Positions 44,814-50,179 of a stretch of DNA of 64,000 nt are shown piece by piece. Origin of the DNA: Verrucomicrobia bacterium IMCC26134 (GTDB lineage Bacteria > Verrucomicrobiota > Verrucomicrobiia > Opitutales > Opitutaceae); the NCBI GenBank assembly GCA_000972765.1, contig CP011265.1:372001-436000 (forward strand), read 5' to 3'. A program made the translations under genes and the position numbers. Under the pieces are notes generated by a model, which was given only the letters and a program-made list of their open reading frames with translations, was not told the DNA's origin and made no database searches. Within the stretch, counting starts at the first letter, position 1, and every line of letters starts with the position of its first letter.

Positions 44814-45805
44814 CGGCGATGCCCTTCATCAAACACGACGCAGCCCGCGACTGGTTTTTGCCTGCCATGGTCCTGCTGTTGTTCGTGCTGGCAGTCGCTT
44901 CGCTGGCGAGCGGAGAAGTCGGTATGACGCCGGCGCGGCTTTGGGCGGGATTAACCGGGGCGGATGAAGTCGCCTCGACGATCATCTGGCAGCTACGGCT
45001 ACCGCGCGTGATCACTGCTCTGCTGGTGGGCTCGGCACTCTCCACCGGCGGACTGGTGATGCAGGCCTATTTCCGCAACAGCCTCGCGAGTCCGGACCTG
45101 CTTGGGGTGAGCAGCGGATCGGCGGCGGGAGCGGTTGTTGCCATTTCCGCCGGTTGGACGGCGATCGGGCTCTGGGTGCTGCCGATAACCGCAGTCGTGG
45201 GCGCTGCGGTGGCGACCTTTGGCGTGCTGGCGCTGGCCAAACGCGGGGCGAGCAGCGAACGCCTGTTGCTCGCGGGCGTGGCGCTGAACGCATTGCTCGG
45301 TGCAGTGACGAGCTACGTGCTCTCGACCGGCGTCGTGCTCTACGAACGAAACGCGCAACTTTTATTCTGGCTGCTGGGCGGGTTGGAAGATCGCACCTGG
45401 CTGCACGTATGGGCGGCGCTGCCAGTCGTGGCTGCGGTCGTGTTAGTCTGGCCGCTGGGCCGGCAGATGGATCTGCTCAGCCTGGGTGAACGCGAGGCCC
45501 AGAGTCTGGGAGTCGAAGTGCGCGGACTGCGCCGCCGGATGCTGGTGCTGGCGACTGTTCTCGCGGCGACGGCGACCGCCGTGGCGGGGATTGTCGGCTT
45601 CGTTGGTCTGGTGGTGCCGCACGCCTTTCGCCTCGCAGTGGGGCCGGAGCACCGCCGACTGGTGCCGCTCTGCGTGGTCGGCGGGGCGACCTTTGTGCTG
45701 GCCTGCGATCTGGCGGGGCGGATGGCGGGCGGACTGCGGCTCGGCATCGTGACGGCGCTGGTGGGCGGACCGTTTTTCCTGTGGTTGCTGAGGAGGCGAG
45801 CATGA
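44810..45805 (+). CDS. btuC: FecCD-type permease of the B12 ABC transporter (BtuC-like)
   Basis: 331 residues with about ten membrane helices. Family motifs: ASGEVGMTPARLWAGL, IIWQLRLPRVITALLVGSALSTGGLVMQAYFRNSLASPDLLGVSSGSAAGA, LLLAGVALNALLGAVTSY, FWLLGGLEDRTW, and the coupling region VEVRGLRRRMLVLATVLAATATAVAGIVGFVGLVVPHAFR. The start at 44810 overlaps the btuF stop and its own stop overlaps the btuD start, so the whole B12 cassette is translationally coupled. Confidence 0.93.
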   Translation: MTAMPFIKHDAARDWFLPAMVLLLFVLAVASLASGEVGMTPARLWAGLTGADEVASTIIWQLRLPRVITALLVGSALSTGGLVMQAYFRNSLASPDLLGVSSGSAAGAVVAISAGWTAIGLWVLPITAVVGAAVATFGVLALAKRGASSERLLLAGVALNALLGAVTSYVLSTGVVLYERNAQLLFWLLGGLEDRTWLHVWAALPVVAAVVLVWPLGRQMDLLSLGEREAQSLGVEVRGLRRRMLVLATVLAATATAVAGIVGFVGLVVPHAFRLAVGPEHRRLVPLCVVGGATFVLACDLAGRMAGGLRLGIVTALVGGPFFLWLLRRRA

Positions 45806-46539
45806 TCACGGACGCTACAAAACCAGTGAGTGCGGTGAGTTTGCGGAATGCTTCGGTGCCGGGGCGGTTACACGATGTGTCGCTTGAACTCGGGCCGGGC
45901 CGCTTGATCGGTCTGTTGGGGCCGAACGGCTCGGGCAAGTCCACCTTGCTGCAAGTGGCGGCGGGCTTGCTGGCGACGAGCGGCGAGGTGCGTTGGTCGG
46001 GTCGTGACGTGGAAGAAATCGCAGCTCCGGAGCGGGCTCGGCAGGTGGCTTGGGTGCCGCAGGAGGCGCGATTTGAGTTTGGGTTTCCCGTGCGCGGGGT
46101 GGTGCAGCAAGGCCGCTACGCGCATGGCGACGACGAGGTCGGAGTCGATGCGGCGCTAGCGAGGTTAGATCTTGAGGCTCTGGCGCGGCGGCCGGTGAAC
46201 GCGCTTTCGGGGGGCGAACGTCAACGCGTTTTGCTGGCGCGTGCCTTGGTGACGGCGGCTCCGGTTCAGCTCTGGGATGAGCCTCTCGCGCCTCTTGATC
46301 CACGGCACGGTCTGGAGGTGTTGATGCTCGCGAAAGAACTCACGAAGGCCGGAGGCACCGTGGTGATATCTCTGCACGACCTGCGGATGGCGCATTGTCT
46401 CGACGAAGTGCTGGTCCTGGCCGGCGGCGAGTTGAAGGCGGCGGGGCGGCCGGACGACGTGTTGACGGCGGAGTTGTTGCGCGACGTTTTTGGCGTGAAG
46501 GCGCGCATGGGCGAGACGCTCATCCTGGAGCTTCCATGA
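45802..46539 (+). CDS. btuD: ATP-binding protein of the B12 ABC transporter (BtuD-like)
   Basis: 245 residues from ATG 45802, which overlaps the btuC stop (ATGA). Walker A LLGPNGSGKSTLL, Q-loop WVPQEARFEF, signature ALSGGERQRV, Walker B VQLWDEPLAPLDP (Trp replaces the usual hydrophobic before Asp) and switch His in VISLHDLRMA. It hydrolyses ATP to drive BtuC. A further short ORF begins within its last codons. Confidence 0.92.
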   Translation: MITDATKPVSAVSLRNASVPGRLHDVSLELGPGRLIGLLGPNGSGKSTLLQVAAGLLATSGEVRWSGRDVEEIAAPERARQVAWVPQEARFEFGFPVRGVVQQGRYAHGDDEVGVDAALARLDLEALARRPVNALSGGERQRVLLARALVTAAPVQLWDEPLAPLDPRHGLEVLMLAKELTKAGGTVVISLHDLRMAHCLDEVLVLAGGELKAAGRPDDVLTAELLRDVFGVKARMGETLILELP

Positions 46540-46634
46540 AACCAGAAATCAGCCGGGTGCGGTGTGAGCCGCTGGGCACGATCATCGCGCTCTCGCGTAA
46601 ACCGAAGCGAATCGTGTTATACACTGATAATTGA
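46536..46634 (+). pseudogene. 32-codon stub ORF coupled to btuD
   Basis: It starts with ATGA overlapping the btuD stop, just as btuC and btuD do, so it appears to have been the next gene of the B12 operon. It reads MKPEISRVRCEPLGTIIALS, then RKPKRIVLYTDN and stop. The end resembles the strand leading to the P-loop of corrinoid adenosyltransferases (VLYTGDGKGKTT), but the P-loop itself is missing. The direct-repeat copy bracketing the GH67 gene begins 10 bases later, so truncation by an insertion event is plausible. The CobO/BtuR identity is tentative. Confidence 0.35.
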
Positions 46635-46643
46635 TGGGAGACT

Positions 46644-46706
46644 GTGTTTCGCCGGAGATCGGGCCGGAAGGAGTTAATGTTTCGCTGCCTGACCCCATTG
46701 ATCAGC
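46644..46706. repeat. Left copy of imperfect direct repeat flanking the GH67 gene
   Basis: It shares TTTCGCCG, GATCGGGCCGG, GTTAAT, TTTC, CCTGACCC and TGATCAGC in the same order with 49011-49077. By eye about 50 of some 64 aligned columns agree, with two small gaps. Confidence 0.7.
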
Positions 46707-46791
46707 CAAGGTCGCTGGATCACACATTGGCCCCGGCTGATCGAATGGAGGATTGTCCGCGCCGATAAAAAAGAATATCAGTGATCACCTG

Positions 46792-48912
46792 ATGTCGATG
46801 CCCCGGTCCGCCTGCCTCCGCCTTCTGATCGTAAGCTTTCTGCTCTGCGCGCCCCGTGCGCTCGCCTCCGAGGGCTACCAGCTCTGGATGCGCTACGACA
46901 AGATCGCGGACGATAAACTCCGCGTCGACTACACTGCCGCGACGACCAGCATCGTTTTGGCGACGCCCACTGGCGCCGAATCGCCGACCATAGCAGCCGC
47001 CCGCGATGAACTCACCACCGCTTTTCGCGGCCTGCTCGGCATCGATGCTAATATCCATCTCACGATTGCTCAGAGCGAAAAACCGCTCGGCTCCGAGGAG
47101 TTCACGCTCGTGAGCGGCAAAGGCACCGTGATTATCACCGGTGGCAGCGATGTCTCCGTCCTCTACGGTTCATTCGACCTATTACGACGCCTCCAGCTCG
47201 CCCAGCCGATCGACGGTCTCGCACTCCGCGAAGCCCCGAAAATCTCCCGCCGTATGCTTAACCATTGGGATAACCTCAACGGCACGATCGAGCGCGGCTA
47301 CGCTGGCCGGTCGCTTTGGAAATGGGATGAACTGCCTGAAAAACTCGATCCGCGTTATCGCGATTACGCGCGCGCTCTGGCTTCGCTCGGCCTCAACGGC
47401 ACCGTGCCGGTCAACGTCAACGCTAACATCCAGTTCCTTACGCCCGAATACCTTAAGAAAATCGCTGCGCTCGCGAACGTGTTTCGCCCCTACGGTATCC
47501 GCGTCTATCTCACCGCGCGCTACAGCTCGCCGATGGAACTCGGCAAACTGCCCAACGCCGACCCGCTTGATGCCGCCGTGATCAAATGGTGGCACGACAA
47601 GGCCGATGAAATCTACGCGTTAGTCCCCGATTTCGGCGGCTTTCTCATCAAGGCCAACTCCGAGGGCCAGCCTGGTCCACAGTCTTACCAACGCACGCAC
47701 GCCGACGGCGCGAATCTCCTCGCCGACGCCGTCGCGCCACACGGCGGAATCGTGATCTGGCGCGCGTTTGTCTACGACGCCAAGGTCGCCGACGATCGGG
47801 CCAAACAGGCCTACAACGAATTCGTTCCGCTTGACGGCAAGTTCCGCGAGAATGTCGTGGTTCAGGTAAAGAACGGTCCGATCGATTTCATGCCGCGCGA
47901 GCCGTTTCACCCGCTCTTTGGCGCGATGCCGAAGACGTCCCTGGCGCTCGAGGTGCAGATCACGCAGGAGTATCTTGGCGGCTCCACCGAGCTCTGTTAC
48001 CTCGCCCCGATGTGGAAGGACGTGCTCGACGCCGACACCTTTCGCCCGAGGCCCGGTTCGACTGTCGCGCACGTGATCGACGGCACTATCGATCATCACG
48101 CGCTCACCGTCATCGCCGGCGTCGCTAATACCGGCTCCGATCGCAACTGGAGCGGCAACCAGCTGGCGCCCGCCAACTGGTATGCTTTCGGCCGCCTCGC
48201 GTGGGACCCCGCGCTCACCTCCGCGCAAATCGCCGAGGAGTGGACACGCCAGACATTTTCCAACGACAGCCGTGCCGTTTCCACCCTCGTGCCGATACTC
48301 ATGGCGTCGCGCGAGGCCGTCGTGAACTACTCAATGCCGCTCGGCCTGCACCACATCATGGCGCGCGGCCACCACCAAGGACCTGGCCCTTGGGTCAACG
48401 TCGGCCGCGCCGATCAGACGTCGGTTTATTTCCACAAGGTCGACGAACAAGGTGTCGGCTTCGACCGCACCGCCACCGGATCCAACGCCACCGGTCAATA
48501 CGCGTCCGAAGCCGGATCGCAATGGGCCGACCTCGCGACGTGCCCCGACGAATATCTCCTCTGGTTCCACCGTCTTCCGTGGGACTACAAAATGCGGTCC
48601 GGGAAAACGCTCTGGACTGAAATCGCGCTCCACTACCAGCACGGCATTGACACCGTCCGCGGCTGGAAAAAATCATGGGAGAACTTGCGTGGCGTGATCG
48701 ACGATGAACGCTTCACCGCCACGCAGAAATTACTCGATCGCCAGGAACACGAAGCCCGCATCTGGCGCGACGTCTGCACGCAGTATTTCGCGACGTTCTC
48801 CAAACTCCCGCTCCCGTCAGAATACGAGTCACCCGAGCACCCGCTGGATTACTATCGGAAACTGCCGGCGCCGTTCACCGCGACGAACGCGCCAGTGACC
48901 GCCACGAATTGA
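46792..48912 (+). CDS. aguA: Alpha-glucuronidase, GH67, secreted
   Basis: 706 residues from ATG 46792 (MSMPRSACLRLLIVSF); an upstream TTG at 46753 would spoil the signal peptide, which ends near RALAS. The layout is standard GH67: an N-terminal GH20b-like domain (TIAAARDELTTAFRGLLGI), a TIM barrel and an all-helical C-terminal domain. Catalytic residues are the acid E291 in IKANSEGQPGP, with D365 in GPIDFMPREP and E387 in LEVQITQEYLGG. APMWKDVLDADTF and PLGLHHIMARGHHQGPGPW are also diagnostic. It removes 4-O-methyl-glucuronic acid from xylan oligosaccharides. It stands alone with its own terminator between two direct repeats, with no xylanase near, which suggests it arrived as a unit. Confidence 0.94.
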   Translation: MSMPRSACLRLLIVSFLLCAPRALASEGYQLWMRYDKIADDKLRVDYTAATTSIVLATPTGAESPTIAAARDELTTAFRGLLGIDANIHLTIAQSEKPLGSEEFTLVSGKGTVIITGGSDVSVLYGSFDLLRRLQLAQPIDGLALREAPKISRRMLNHWDNLNGTIERGYAGRSLWKWDELPEKLDPRYRDYARALASLGLNGTVPVNVNANIQFLTPEYLKKIAALANVFRPYGIRVYLTARYSSPMELGKLPNADPLDAAVIKWWHDKADEIYALVPDFGGFLIKANSEGQPGPQSYQRTHADGANLLADAVAPHGGIVIWRAFVYDAKVADDRAKQAYNEFVPLDGKFRENVVVQVKNGPIDFMPREPFHPLFGAMPKTSLALEVQITQEYLGGSTELCYLAPMWKDVLDADTFRPRPGSTVAHVIDGTIDHHALTVIAGVANTGSDRNWSGNQLAPANWYAFGRLAWDPALTSAQIAEEWTRQTFSNDSRAVSTLVPILMASREAVVNYSMPLGLHHIMARGHHQGPGPWVNVGRADQTSVYFHKVDEQGVGFDRTATGSNATGQYASEAGSQWADLATCPDEYLLWFHRLPWDYKMRSGKTLWTEIALHYQHGIDTVRGWKKSWENLRGVIDDERFTATQKLLDRQEHEARIWRDVCTQYFATFSKLPLPSEYESPEHPLDYYRKLPAPFTATNAPVTATN

Positions 48913-48937
48913 GACTAATGCTGTCGCTTATCAGACT

Positions 48938-48966
48938 TGCCGCGCCCTTTTTTTGGCGCGGTTTTA
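48938..48966 (+). terminator. Rho-independent terminator of the GH67 gene
   Basis: CCGCGCC (48940-48946) pairs with GGCGCGG (48955-48961) across a T-rich loop and is followed by TTTT. It lies 28 bases past the stop. Confidence 0.8.
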
Positions 48967-49010
48967 GTCGCGATTCAGCGCGGTTAGGCTTTACGCATAC
49001 CCGACTGGAA

Positions 49011-49077
49011 ATTGGTTTTCGCCGTGGATCGGGCCGGGGCGGGCGTTAATTTTTCTCACCTGACCCGAATGATCAGC
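49011..49077. repeat. Right copy of imperfect direct repeat flanking the GH67 gene
   Basis: Partner of the copy at 46644-46706. It ends in TGATCAGC, which runs into the stop codon of the minus-strand GNAT-like gene (49073-49075). Confidence 0.7.
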
Positions 49078-50179
49078 GCCCCGTTGGCAACGCTTCGGAC
49101 GTGAACCACGGTTGCAGGTCGCGCGGAACCGCGGGGTCGCTTGTGCTAAGGGAGGGATCGGGGTGGTCGAGCAGCCGATACCACGCGGAGAGCGAGGCCA
49201 GCGCGGGGGCATAGGTGCGGTCGGTGCGTGGCGGCTTGGCGCTGTAGGCGACGAAACGTCCGCCGGGCGCGCTGGCGATGAGAGTGTGGGTTTGCAGGAA
49301 ACGCCGGGTGTGCGGGTGGGCGGGATCAAGATGCAAAACGACCATGTTTAAGATCGTTTGTGCGTGGTCGAGTCGTGCGCCCCATTTGGCTTTGTAGGCA
49401 AAAACGCCGTCTTCGAGGTAGGGAATCGTGCCACCGAGTATGCAGGTGCGTCGGCCGAGTTCGAACGCTCGGCGCAGGCTGGCCTGGTAAACGGCGGCAG
49501 TGACGCCTTTTCGCAGGAGGTCGGGGTCGCCTTGCAGCCAGCCCATACCATGCATTCGGTAGGCTCCCGCAGTGGCGCGGTTGAGGACGCCCGCCACCCA
49601 ACGTTCGCCGAGGAAGATTTGGACCAGCTCCGTCTGCTCGTCGGCCAGCAAACGATGAAGGTCGGCCAGGCTGGCTGGTATCGCCTCGCTGCCGTAGCGG
49701 GAGGTAATGGTGGGATAATATAGGCGTTGATAAAACTCGTCGACGCAGGCCGGGTCGCGGGTGATGCGAACTTGAAAGCCTTGGTTGCGCACGCGACGCA
49801 GGTCGTCGAGGGCGGACGGGCCGAGCGTCCGGTTGAACGCCTCCCAAGTCGCGGGCAGGTCAATAGTCAGGCATACAAAGTGCGGCAGGAGCAGGGCGCC
49901 CTCGTGTGCGGCTGGAGGAAGGTTGGCGGCGACTCCGACCGCGAGGCCGTGACGACGGGCGAGTCGGCGCAAGGCGGGGCCTGCCTCACGGAGGTGCAGG
50001 CCGCGGCGCAGCACGGGCAGCACGTCTTCGCCAAGAAAGGTTCGGGAAAAGTGTGCCTCGAGATACGTGGATCCGAAGACGGCTACGGCGGAGCCGTCGG
50101 GTGCGTGCGCGACGACATGAAGGCAGGCAGTGCGAAGCCGGCCCAGGCGCCTTTTGATGCGAACAAGCAGCCATTTCAT
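49073..50179 (-). CDS. GNAT/FemAB-like acyltransferase domain protein
   Basis: 368 residues, cytosolic, basic N-terminus (MKWLLVRIKRRLGRLR). The centre resembles the acetyltransferase fold used by FemAB and polysaccharide-associated GNAT proteins: TWEAFNRTLGPSALDDLRRVRNQGFQVRI, VDEFYQRLYYPTITSRYG, LVQIFLGERWVAGVLNRATAGAYRMHGMGWLQGD, and AVYQASLRRAFELGRRTCILGGTIPYLEDGVFAYKAKWGARL. Such proteins transfer acyl or aminoacyl groups. No substrate can be inferred. It follows recQ by 38 bases on the same strand and may share its transcript. Catalytic residues are not assignable by eye. Confidence 0.65.
   Translation of the reverse strand: MKWLLVRIKRRLGRLRTACLHVVAHAPDGSAVAVFGSTYLEAHFSRTFLGEDVLPVLRRGLHLREAGPALRRLARRHGLAVGVAANLPPAAHEGALLLPHFVCLTIDLPATWEAFNRTLGPSALDDLRRVRNQGFQVRITRDPACVDEFYQRLYYPTITSRYGSEAIPASLADLHRLLADEQTELVQIFLGERWVAGVLNRATAGAYRMHGMGWLQGDPDLLRKGVTAAVYQASLRRAFELGRRTCILGGTIPYLEDGVFAYKAKWGARLDHAQTILNMVVLHLDPAHPHTRRFLQTHTLIASAPGGRFVAYSAKPPRTDRTYAPALASLSAWYRLLDHPDPSLSTSDPAVPRDLQPWFTSEALPTGR

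Follow-up and report, generated by a model that had tools for sequence, protein, structure and literature searches.

Genes and repeats around the GH67 gene

The DNA analysed here, referred to as the window, is a 64-kb stretch corresponding to positions 372001-436000 of a genome that forms a single contig of 4.0 Mb (hereafter the host genome). In this window a GH67 alpha-glucuronidase gene is bracketed by two imperfect repeats in direct orientation. The features of the locus are the following (window coordinates):

45781-46539, plus strand: BtuD-like ABC ATPase (Pfam ABC_tran), last intact gene of a TonB receptor/BtuF/BtuC/BtuD operon; FecCD and Peripla_BP_2 in the preceding genes
46536-46634, plus strand: N-terminal fragment (32 codons) of a second BtuF-like substrate-binding protein (btuF2); homology ends at 46616
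46623-46674, plus strand: left copy part A, probable truncated IS91-family ori (right) end, outer terminus 46623-46627; blastn to the G108 element E 8e-6, alignment to reference positions 3-47
46671-46707, plus strand: left copy part B, RAYT-linked dispersed motif; 19.4 bits with a leave-out position matrix, the next best site of the window reaching 4.9
46735-46784, plus strand: 3′ stump (LIEWRIVRADKKEYQ-stop) of a small gene that is intact directly before GH67 in G023; DNA and protein alignment to L056
46792-48912, plus strand: GH67 alpha-glucuronidase; Glyco_hydro_67M/C/N, PDB 1gqi E 2.6e-212
48940-48965, plus strand: terminator-like G+C hairpin behind GH67, 7-bp stem and T tract, recognised by eye
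49004-49047, plus strand: right copy part A, probable truncated IS91-family ori end; blastn to the G108 element over 49007-49038, E 1e-4, alignment to reference positions 8-40
49044-49077, plus strand: right copy part B, which extends into the stop codon of the FemAB-like gene; homologue of left part B, although taken alone it does not score as B (3.0 bits with a gap)
49073-50179, minus strand: FemAB/GNAT-like protein with its stop codon inside the right copy; PF13480 E 4e-5, 73% identical relative in L088
50218-52062, minus strand: RecQ helicase, landmark of the right flank; Pfam RQC, DEAD and HRDC, 91% DNA identity in L088

A preliminary description of this DNA had reported same-orientation imperfect repeats on either side of a GH67 alpha-glucuronidase gene. 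Both points are borne out, the gene by its three Pfam domains and the repeats by 55 identical columns out of 73 in the alignment of 46637-46707 with 49007-49077. When the segment 46560-46800 was compared with the 4.0-Mb host genome by blastn, the right copy was the only match at E ≤ 0.001 besides the segment itself (E 3e-6, 79%). Extended to the transposon terminus, the left copy spans 46623-46707 and the right copy 49004-49077, with 75-79% identity over about 70 bp. Three patterns derived from the copies themselves were searched in the window. The first, TTAATNTTTCNCNNCCTGACCC, allowing ≤3 mismatches, gave one match, in the left copy, the right copy being gapped there (0 in 100 shuffles). The second, TTTCGCCGNNGATCGGGCCGG, gave two matches, both exact, compared with a shuffle mean of 0.15 at ≤3 mismatches (2 of 100 shuffles reached 2). 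Finally, CCTGACCCNANTGATCAGC is exact in both copies and occurs at one unrelated site with 3 mismatches (shuffle mean 0.13). The listed GH67 open reading frame, 46753-48912, begins at TTG 46753; the ATG at 46792 was chosen as the likelier start. The terminator attributed to the gene corresponds to the hairpin and T tract seen by eye, a structure absent from the list of the terminator scan. No Rfam family matched 46300-49400, and the promoter scan returned one site against a shuffle mean of 0.7.

On the left, the truncated ORF described before the repeat (46536-46634) has its stop codon within the left copy. Homology to btuF2 extends as far as 46616, which leaves six bases up to the terminus of the left copy, and the ori end lies about 7 bp from the break. 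The intact homologue of L116, a Peripla_BP_2 protein, aligns by tblastn with 66.7% identity over 46554-46616; the remainder of btuF2 was not found by tblastn anywhere in the 64-kb window. In 5 of 29 relatives' loci (L095, L101, L102, L110 and L116) the gene after BtuD is an intact BtuF-like homologue of 276-290 aa; in G105 and G109 other genes come next. The best NCBIfam match of the BtuD-like protein itself is a corrinoid ABC ATPase model, with a score of 210 against a cut-off of 537. The slot behind BtuD (window:45781-46634; loci L090-L118) varies among relatives, being occupied by a second BtuF-like gene, by a ~197-208-aa ORF with a P-loop-like start, or by others.

On the right, the repeat does run into the end of the next gene, whose stop codon (49073-49075, minus strand) lies within the right copy. 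In L088 (G105:C4 by its coordinates) the RecQ and FemAB-like genes are conserved, the next genes are different and GH67 is not beside them. Since the neighbouring genes differ in L088, G105 and G109, both flanks are breakpoints relative to these relatives. None of the few relatives' loci examined contained a FemAB/btuF2 junction, whether GH67 was present or not.

Two separately distributed halves

Each repeat copy is composite: judged from sequence comparison, the first ~45 bp (part A) is very probably the right, or "ori", end of an IS91-family element, and the last ~35 bp (part B) resembles a RAYT-linked dispersed motif. The idea that the whole repeat is a single REP-like motif was dropped, the halves being distributed separately. 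A third complete A-B composite was found in the host genome neither by blastn at E ≤ 0.001 nor among the model matches listed.

The identity of part A came from G108, where contig C10 encodes a 536-aa protein that passes the NCBIfam model for IS91-family transposases (NF033538, 149.2 for a cut-off of 125). The protein has Zn_Tnp_IS91 (PF14319) and Y2_Tnp (PF04986) domains and carries HPHVHV and YYGYY sequences, which we take to be the Y2/HUH motifs. The DNA behind its gene ends in the part A terminus. Because part A lies downstream of the transposase gene, it is assigned to the right, or ori, end of IS91-family elements as set out in PMC3189936. Among 15 genomes of the genus, G108:C10, which is located beside part A copies, is the only full Y2 transposase match; one partial match occurs in G110. 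The host genome has no PF04986 match and retains a 27-residue remnant of the transposase C-terminus at 1038.7 kb. Remnants of this kind are joined to the part A end in G108:C371 and G100:C25, and shorter ones in G104, G110 and host-genome loci. Blastn from the G108 element recovered 741 bp in G108:C371, ~627 bp in G100:C25, 424 bp in the host genome (1038.7 kb), 251 bp in G104:C308 and 129 bp in G110:C25, together with many matches of 33-75 bp; matches to the first terminus end within q4073-4085. Loci L189 and L195 gave no match to the element (blastn, E ≤ 0.001). Taken together, the ends of the repeats are very probably ori ends of IS91-family rolling-circle (HUH, Y2) transposons.

Many part A copies end in ACTG (CAGT on the other strand), a tetranucleotide that may belong to the target or to the element. 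A 4-bp CCGG/CCGG stem at the ori is paired in 90.3% of cells over 18 sequences, with covariation not above that of shuffles (215/500). Single-strand folds of the window copies show no excess of stability (z 1.98 and 0.69), although the copy at 640156 reached z -2.67. The copies at 3436640 and 2859586 gave z -1.03 and 0.72.

Part A was then counted across the genus. A simple pattern with ≤3 mismatches yielded no excess in the host genome (9 matches vs 10 in the control), three of the matches sharing further bases outside the pattern. With a cut-off of E ≤ 0.01, the profile model located no fewer than 34 part A copies, the reference included, spread over 8 of the 15 genus genomes: G104 has 8, G108 7, the host genome (G000) 6, G105 and G100 4 each, G110 and G109 2 each, and G098 1. 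These counts are lower bounds, as 150 first-look candidates were scored per genome, and the E-values are per genome and rough. The models R1 and R2 were built from five and 17 sequences, each including both window copies, which therefore match by construction; five of the 34 copies, the two of the window among them, trained the search model. At E ≤ 1, R1 matches all 15 genomes, and only E ≤ 0.01 was counted. The 34-copy alignment leaves out three copies at E 0.01-0.05, including one of the host genome (21940).

Beyond the window, the host genome has at least four part A copies at E ≤ 0.01 (640156, 1038723, 2859586 and 3436640). One lies 13 bp behind a stop codon, one in the end of a GGDEF-EAL gene and two between ORFs, nearer gene starts. 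The preliminary description, which had suggested a dispersed 3′-end repeat, was thus largely right for the 5′ half and too narrow as to its position; it had not recognised this half as an IS91-family ori end. The outcome that it named as a refutation, many unrelated copies behind genes in other places, is partly realised where the half-repeat is concerned but does not apply to the complete repeat. The GGDEF-EAL gene (L214:251-2200; G000:C1:638.2-640.2 kb) takes its last codons and stop from an IS91-type ori end, which itself ends at the stop of the convergent neighbour.

The two ends of part A behave differently. The outer end is nearly fixed, falling at element position ≤3 for 23 of the 34 aligned copies and at ≤8 for 29. 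The inner end varies between 32 and 1109, the latter being the reference copy and the limit of the compared stretch; 26 of the 34 end at 71 or less, and most copies are shorter than 75 bp. In diverged copies the inner end can be placed only to within several bases, and three copies that are stacked or close to others were compared over a shortened stretch. In G108 the terminus is directly followed by further fragments that differ in length and share an identical terminus (stacked ends). Moreover, an ACTGATA-like terminus (1 mismatch) is present ≤45 bp outside 8 of the 34 copies, including the window left copy and three in one G108 contig; 500 shuffles that preserve base composition only gave 1.5 on average and at most 6. 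All 7 pairs of part A neighbours lying ≤5 kb apart are in direct orientation, as are all 5 that remain when two stacked pairs are left out; the contigs of most genomes are short, so that distant pairs were missed. At L191:1526-2319 (G100:C25), two A ends in direct orientation and at a distance of 745 bp enclose one Hcp-family ORF (PF05638, E 6e-27), an arrangement similar to that around GH67.

Part B has a distribution of its own. A pattern from the 3′ half of the repeat gave 17 matches in the host genome, including the left copy, vs 3 for the reversed control, and the dispersed motif B, GTTTCTCGGCCWGACCCCNTTGGNTTG, gave 14 vs 0. Motif B adjoins three tandem PF01797 (Y1) genes, the only PF01797 genes found in the host genome, and its RAYT-type gene scores 72 for a cut-off of 80 with the NCBIfam model of REP-associated transposases. 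Among 27 B loci searched, RAYT homologues that are 73-79% identical occur at B loci of G044, G075 and G105, and short pieces in G100. With a matrix of 12 B copies, window copies excluded, the left copy scores 19.4 bits and the next window site 4.9; the maximum over 20 simulated 64-kb strands was 14.8. The right copy scores 3.0 with one gap; what links it to B is solely its resemblance to the left copy. On its minus strand the left copy has GGGGTCAG, which fits GGGGWSAS, whereas most B copies of the host genome read GGGGTCTG, which does not. When a single B copy was folded as DNA, in view of the palindromic hairpins of GTAG REPs, it showed no hairpin excess (z 0.49). Among 167 B matches in the loci examined, the A core was found upstream only in copies of the window left site.

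Several further arrangements were noted near B copies. At L197:740-900 (G044:C22) the order of the window composite is reversed, B coming first and the inner part of A immediately after it. At L025:3148-5803 (G000:C1:723.1-725.8 kb), three RAYT-type transposase genes are repeated in tandem every 836 bp; the 3′ sides of two of them are joined to the B motif, with ends unlike that of the longer left gene copy, as if produced by tandem duplication via the motif. Finally, TATGATCCGGACCTAGGTTACA and variants adjoin or lie near several B copies (L023, L025; G000:C1:3283.3, 3286.0, 3287.4 and 726.5 kb) and are possibly the end of another insertion sequence.

Origin of the bracketed gene

GH67 matches at E ≤ 1e-80 are present in 32 of 100 family genomes, the host genome included, and absent from the three other genus members of the family sample (3 of the 14 other genus genomes were searched). 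In G025 and G043 the gene adjoins an MFS_2 sugar transporter gene; in G043 this is followed by a LacI-type regulator (PF00356), and G025 shows the same regulator start. The GH67 gene of the window is solitary. The DNA upstream of the window GH67 is shared with one of 29 distinct relatives' GH67 loci, L056 of G023. There, the shared DNA forms the 3′ part of an intact short ORF ending immediately upstream of GH67, and the window retains about the 16 last codons of this ORF (46736-46782; 81% DNA identity, E 1.5e-6; protein alignment E 3e-4). The parent ORF in G023 belongs to no Pfam family, its sole match, PF08793, being insignificant. A second weak upstream match, in L071 (E 0.003), lies away from the GH67 gene of that locus. 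Downstream of GH67 no match at E ≤ 0.1 was found among the 29 loci, and a search for the part A end near relatives' GH67 loci returned none, the best E being 0.08. The negative G-C skew of GH67 was discarded as a sign of inversion, as the coding strands of two orthologues share it (-0.134 vs -0.104 and -0.137).

Since the stump lies between the left copy and GH67, the gene arrived with a broken piece of another gene order. By the alignments, the piece was broken off 0-28 bp inside the inner end of the left copy. The stump shows relocation and does not distinguish capture from recombination.

In IS91-type elements, copying begins at ori and is expected to finish at the opposite end; an early stop leaves a truncated copy, and a run past the end carries neighbouring DNA along. 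We lean towards the view that, as a whole, both repeats are relics of one mini-element, the second copy of which brought GH67. The mini-element would consist of an IS91-family ori end cut to ~45 bp and fused to the RAYT-linked motif. Its first position would have been the end of the FemAB-like gene. Another copy, read from its ori end through its inner side into GH67, would then have transposed and landed at the ori end of the first, giving the order FemAB gene, copy, GH67, copy, broken btuF2. Capture itself and this order of events are what we infer; the sequences themselves show the kind and polarity of the ends, outer ends that hardly vary beside inner ends that do, the stacking in a relative, the stump, and the position of GH67 on the side of the left copy where captured DNA would lie. 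Rolling-circle capture of GH67, stacked on an older copy, is the reading that we favour, tentatively and at nearly even chances; because a gene stump was found before GH67, it was raised slightly from a more hesitant estimate.

One-ended rolling-circle transposition explains the constant ori end with truncation, the direct orientation of neighbours, the stacking and the capture on the inner side; GH67 lies on that side of the left copy, as capture requires. With no additional A-B composite detected in the genome, the likeliest origin of the two copies is one from the other, or both from a single parent. As they are only 75-79% identical, the event is old and its steps are blurred. Against capture stand the presence of the stump gene before GH67 in only one of 29 relatives' loci, the lack of a part A end near those loci, the lack of a FemAB/btuF2 junction in the few loci examined, the right part B, unmatched when taken alone, and a host genome without a Y2_Tnp match. 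The left break, too, is left unexplained by a plain insertion, as the remainder of btuF2 was not found in the window.

The two repeats could instead be plain dispersed repeats, two mini-elements inserted independently near a GH67 gene already in place and bracketing it by coincidence. Part A is indeed dispersed, with at least 6 host-genome copies at E ≤ 0.01 (window copies included), as is part B. However, the 4.0 Mb yielded no third composite and both known ones adjoin GH67; two of six random copies would fall within 2.4 kb with a probability of 0.018. Close part A neighbours in the genus are uniformly direct, and the left copy lies within ~30 bp of the break in the stump. Coincidence appears doubtful, though it is a serious rival of capture.

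Homologous recombination between a circle or segment carrying GH67 with one copy and a resident copy, after which the repeats joined the btu operon to the FemAB/RecQ region, seems less probable again and is judged unlikely, though it too is a serious rival. It would agree with the rearrangement of both flanks relative to the closest relatives (RecQ-FemAB next to different genes in L088, differing BtuD neighbours in G105 and G109), and most natural IS801 fragments are attributed to reorganisations in PMC3189936. However, copies of ~80 bp at 75-79% identity are poor recombination substrates now, although they may once have been identical.

The footprint of a cassette insertion, as first suggested, does not hold in the form of a target-site duplication, which implies short identical direct repeats and is ruled out by copies of ~70 bp at 75-79% identity; it could hold in another form, the full repeat being found only twice, both times beside GH67. 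A target-site duplication or an integron-type gene cassette can hardly be upheld: direct repeats do flank a single gene with its own terminator-like hairpin, but they are too long and divergent for a duplication, and they match one end of an identified element that has further copies in other places.

The capture reading might be extended to the genus. IS91-family ori ends would then be preferred landing sites, at which fragments and captured host genes pile up directly between ori ends, a proposal that we regard as rather improbable. If true, preferred landing at ori ends would amount to cassette-like gene stacking free of an integrase, GH67 being one captured gene.

Comparison with known transposons

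The arrangement suggests, and does not prove, that a transposon carried a plant-fibre-digesting GH67 gene to its present site. It may represent a route by which a single xylan-degradation gene is moved away from its usual partners. In the cited literature, gene capture of the IS91 type concerns resistance and virulence genes; the cargo proposed here is metabolic. Searches of a limited literature collection found nothing on IS91 in Opitutaceae or on stacked IS91 ori ends.

TIRtrons and RAYT-like transposases with GGGGWSAS terminal repeats, as presented in PMC3733652, are resembled by part B, which adjoins RAYT-type genes and fits the motif in the left copy. Unlike them, most B copies of the host genome depart from GGGGWSAS, and part B is known here as a dispersed motif, not as an inverted terminal repeat. 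The ISCR elements share an HUH transposase, oriIS and terIS, and the suspected mobilisation of adjacent genes (PMC13393415). However, the G108 transposase fails the ISCR clade Ia model NF052416, the sole ISCR model listed (117.3 vs 925), and the cargo here is metabolic.

The closest features are those of IS801, an IS91-family element of Pseudomonas syringae. According to PMC3189936 and PMC6354349, IS801 has a constant right (ori) end, variable left ends and miniature fragments, recruits adjacent DNA, leaves deletions bordered on one side by the ori and shows one-ended transposition in the laboratory; right-end fragments of 229-679 nt are described in the former. Unlike these, the copies studied here are old relics in an Opitutaceae genus, mostly <75 bp, some stacked end on end, and they flank a glycoside hydrolase gene. 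The ladder of end fragments in this genus would be a record, read from sequence only, of one-ended rolling-circle transposition in environmental bacteria, and by analogy the pair around GH67 would be a further case of behaviour already known for IS801.
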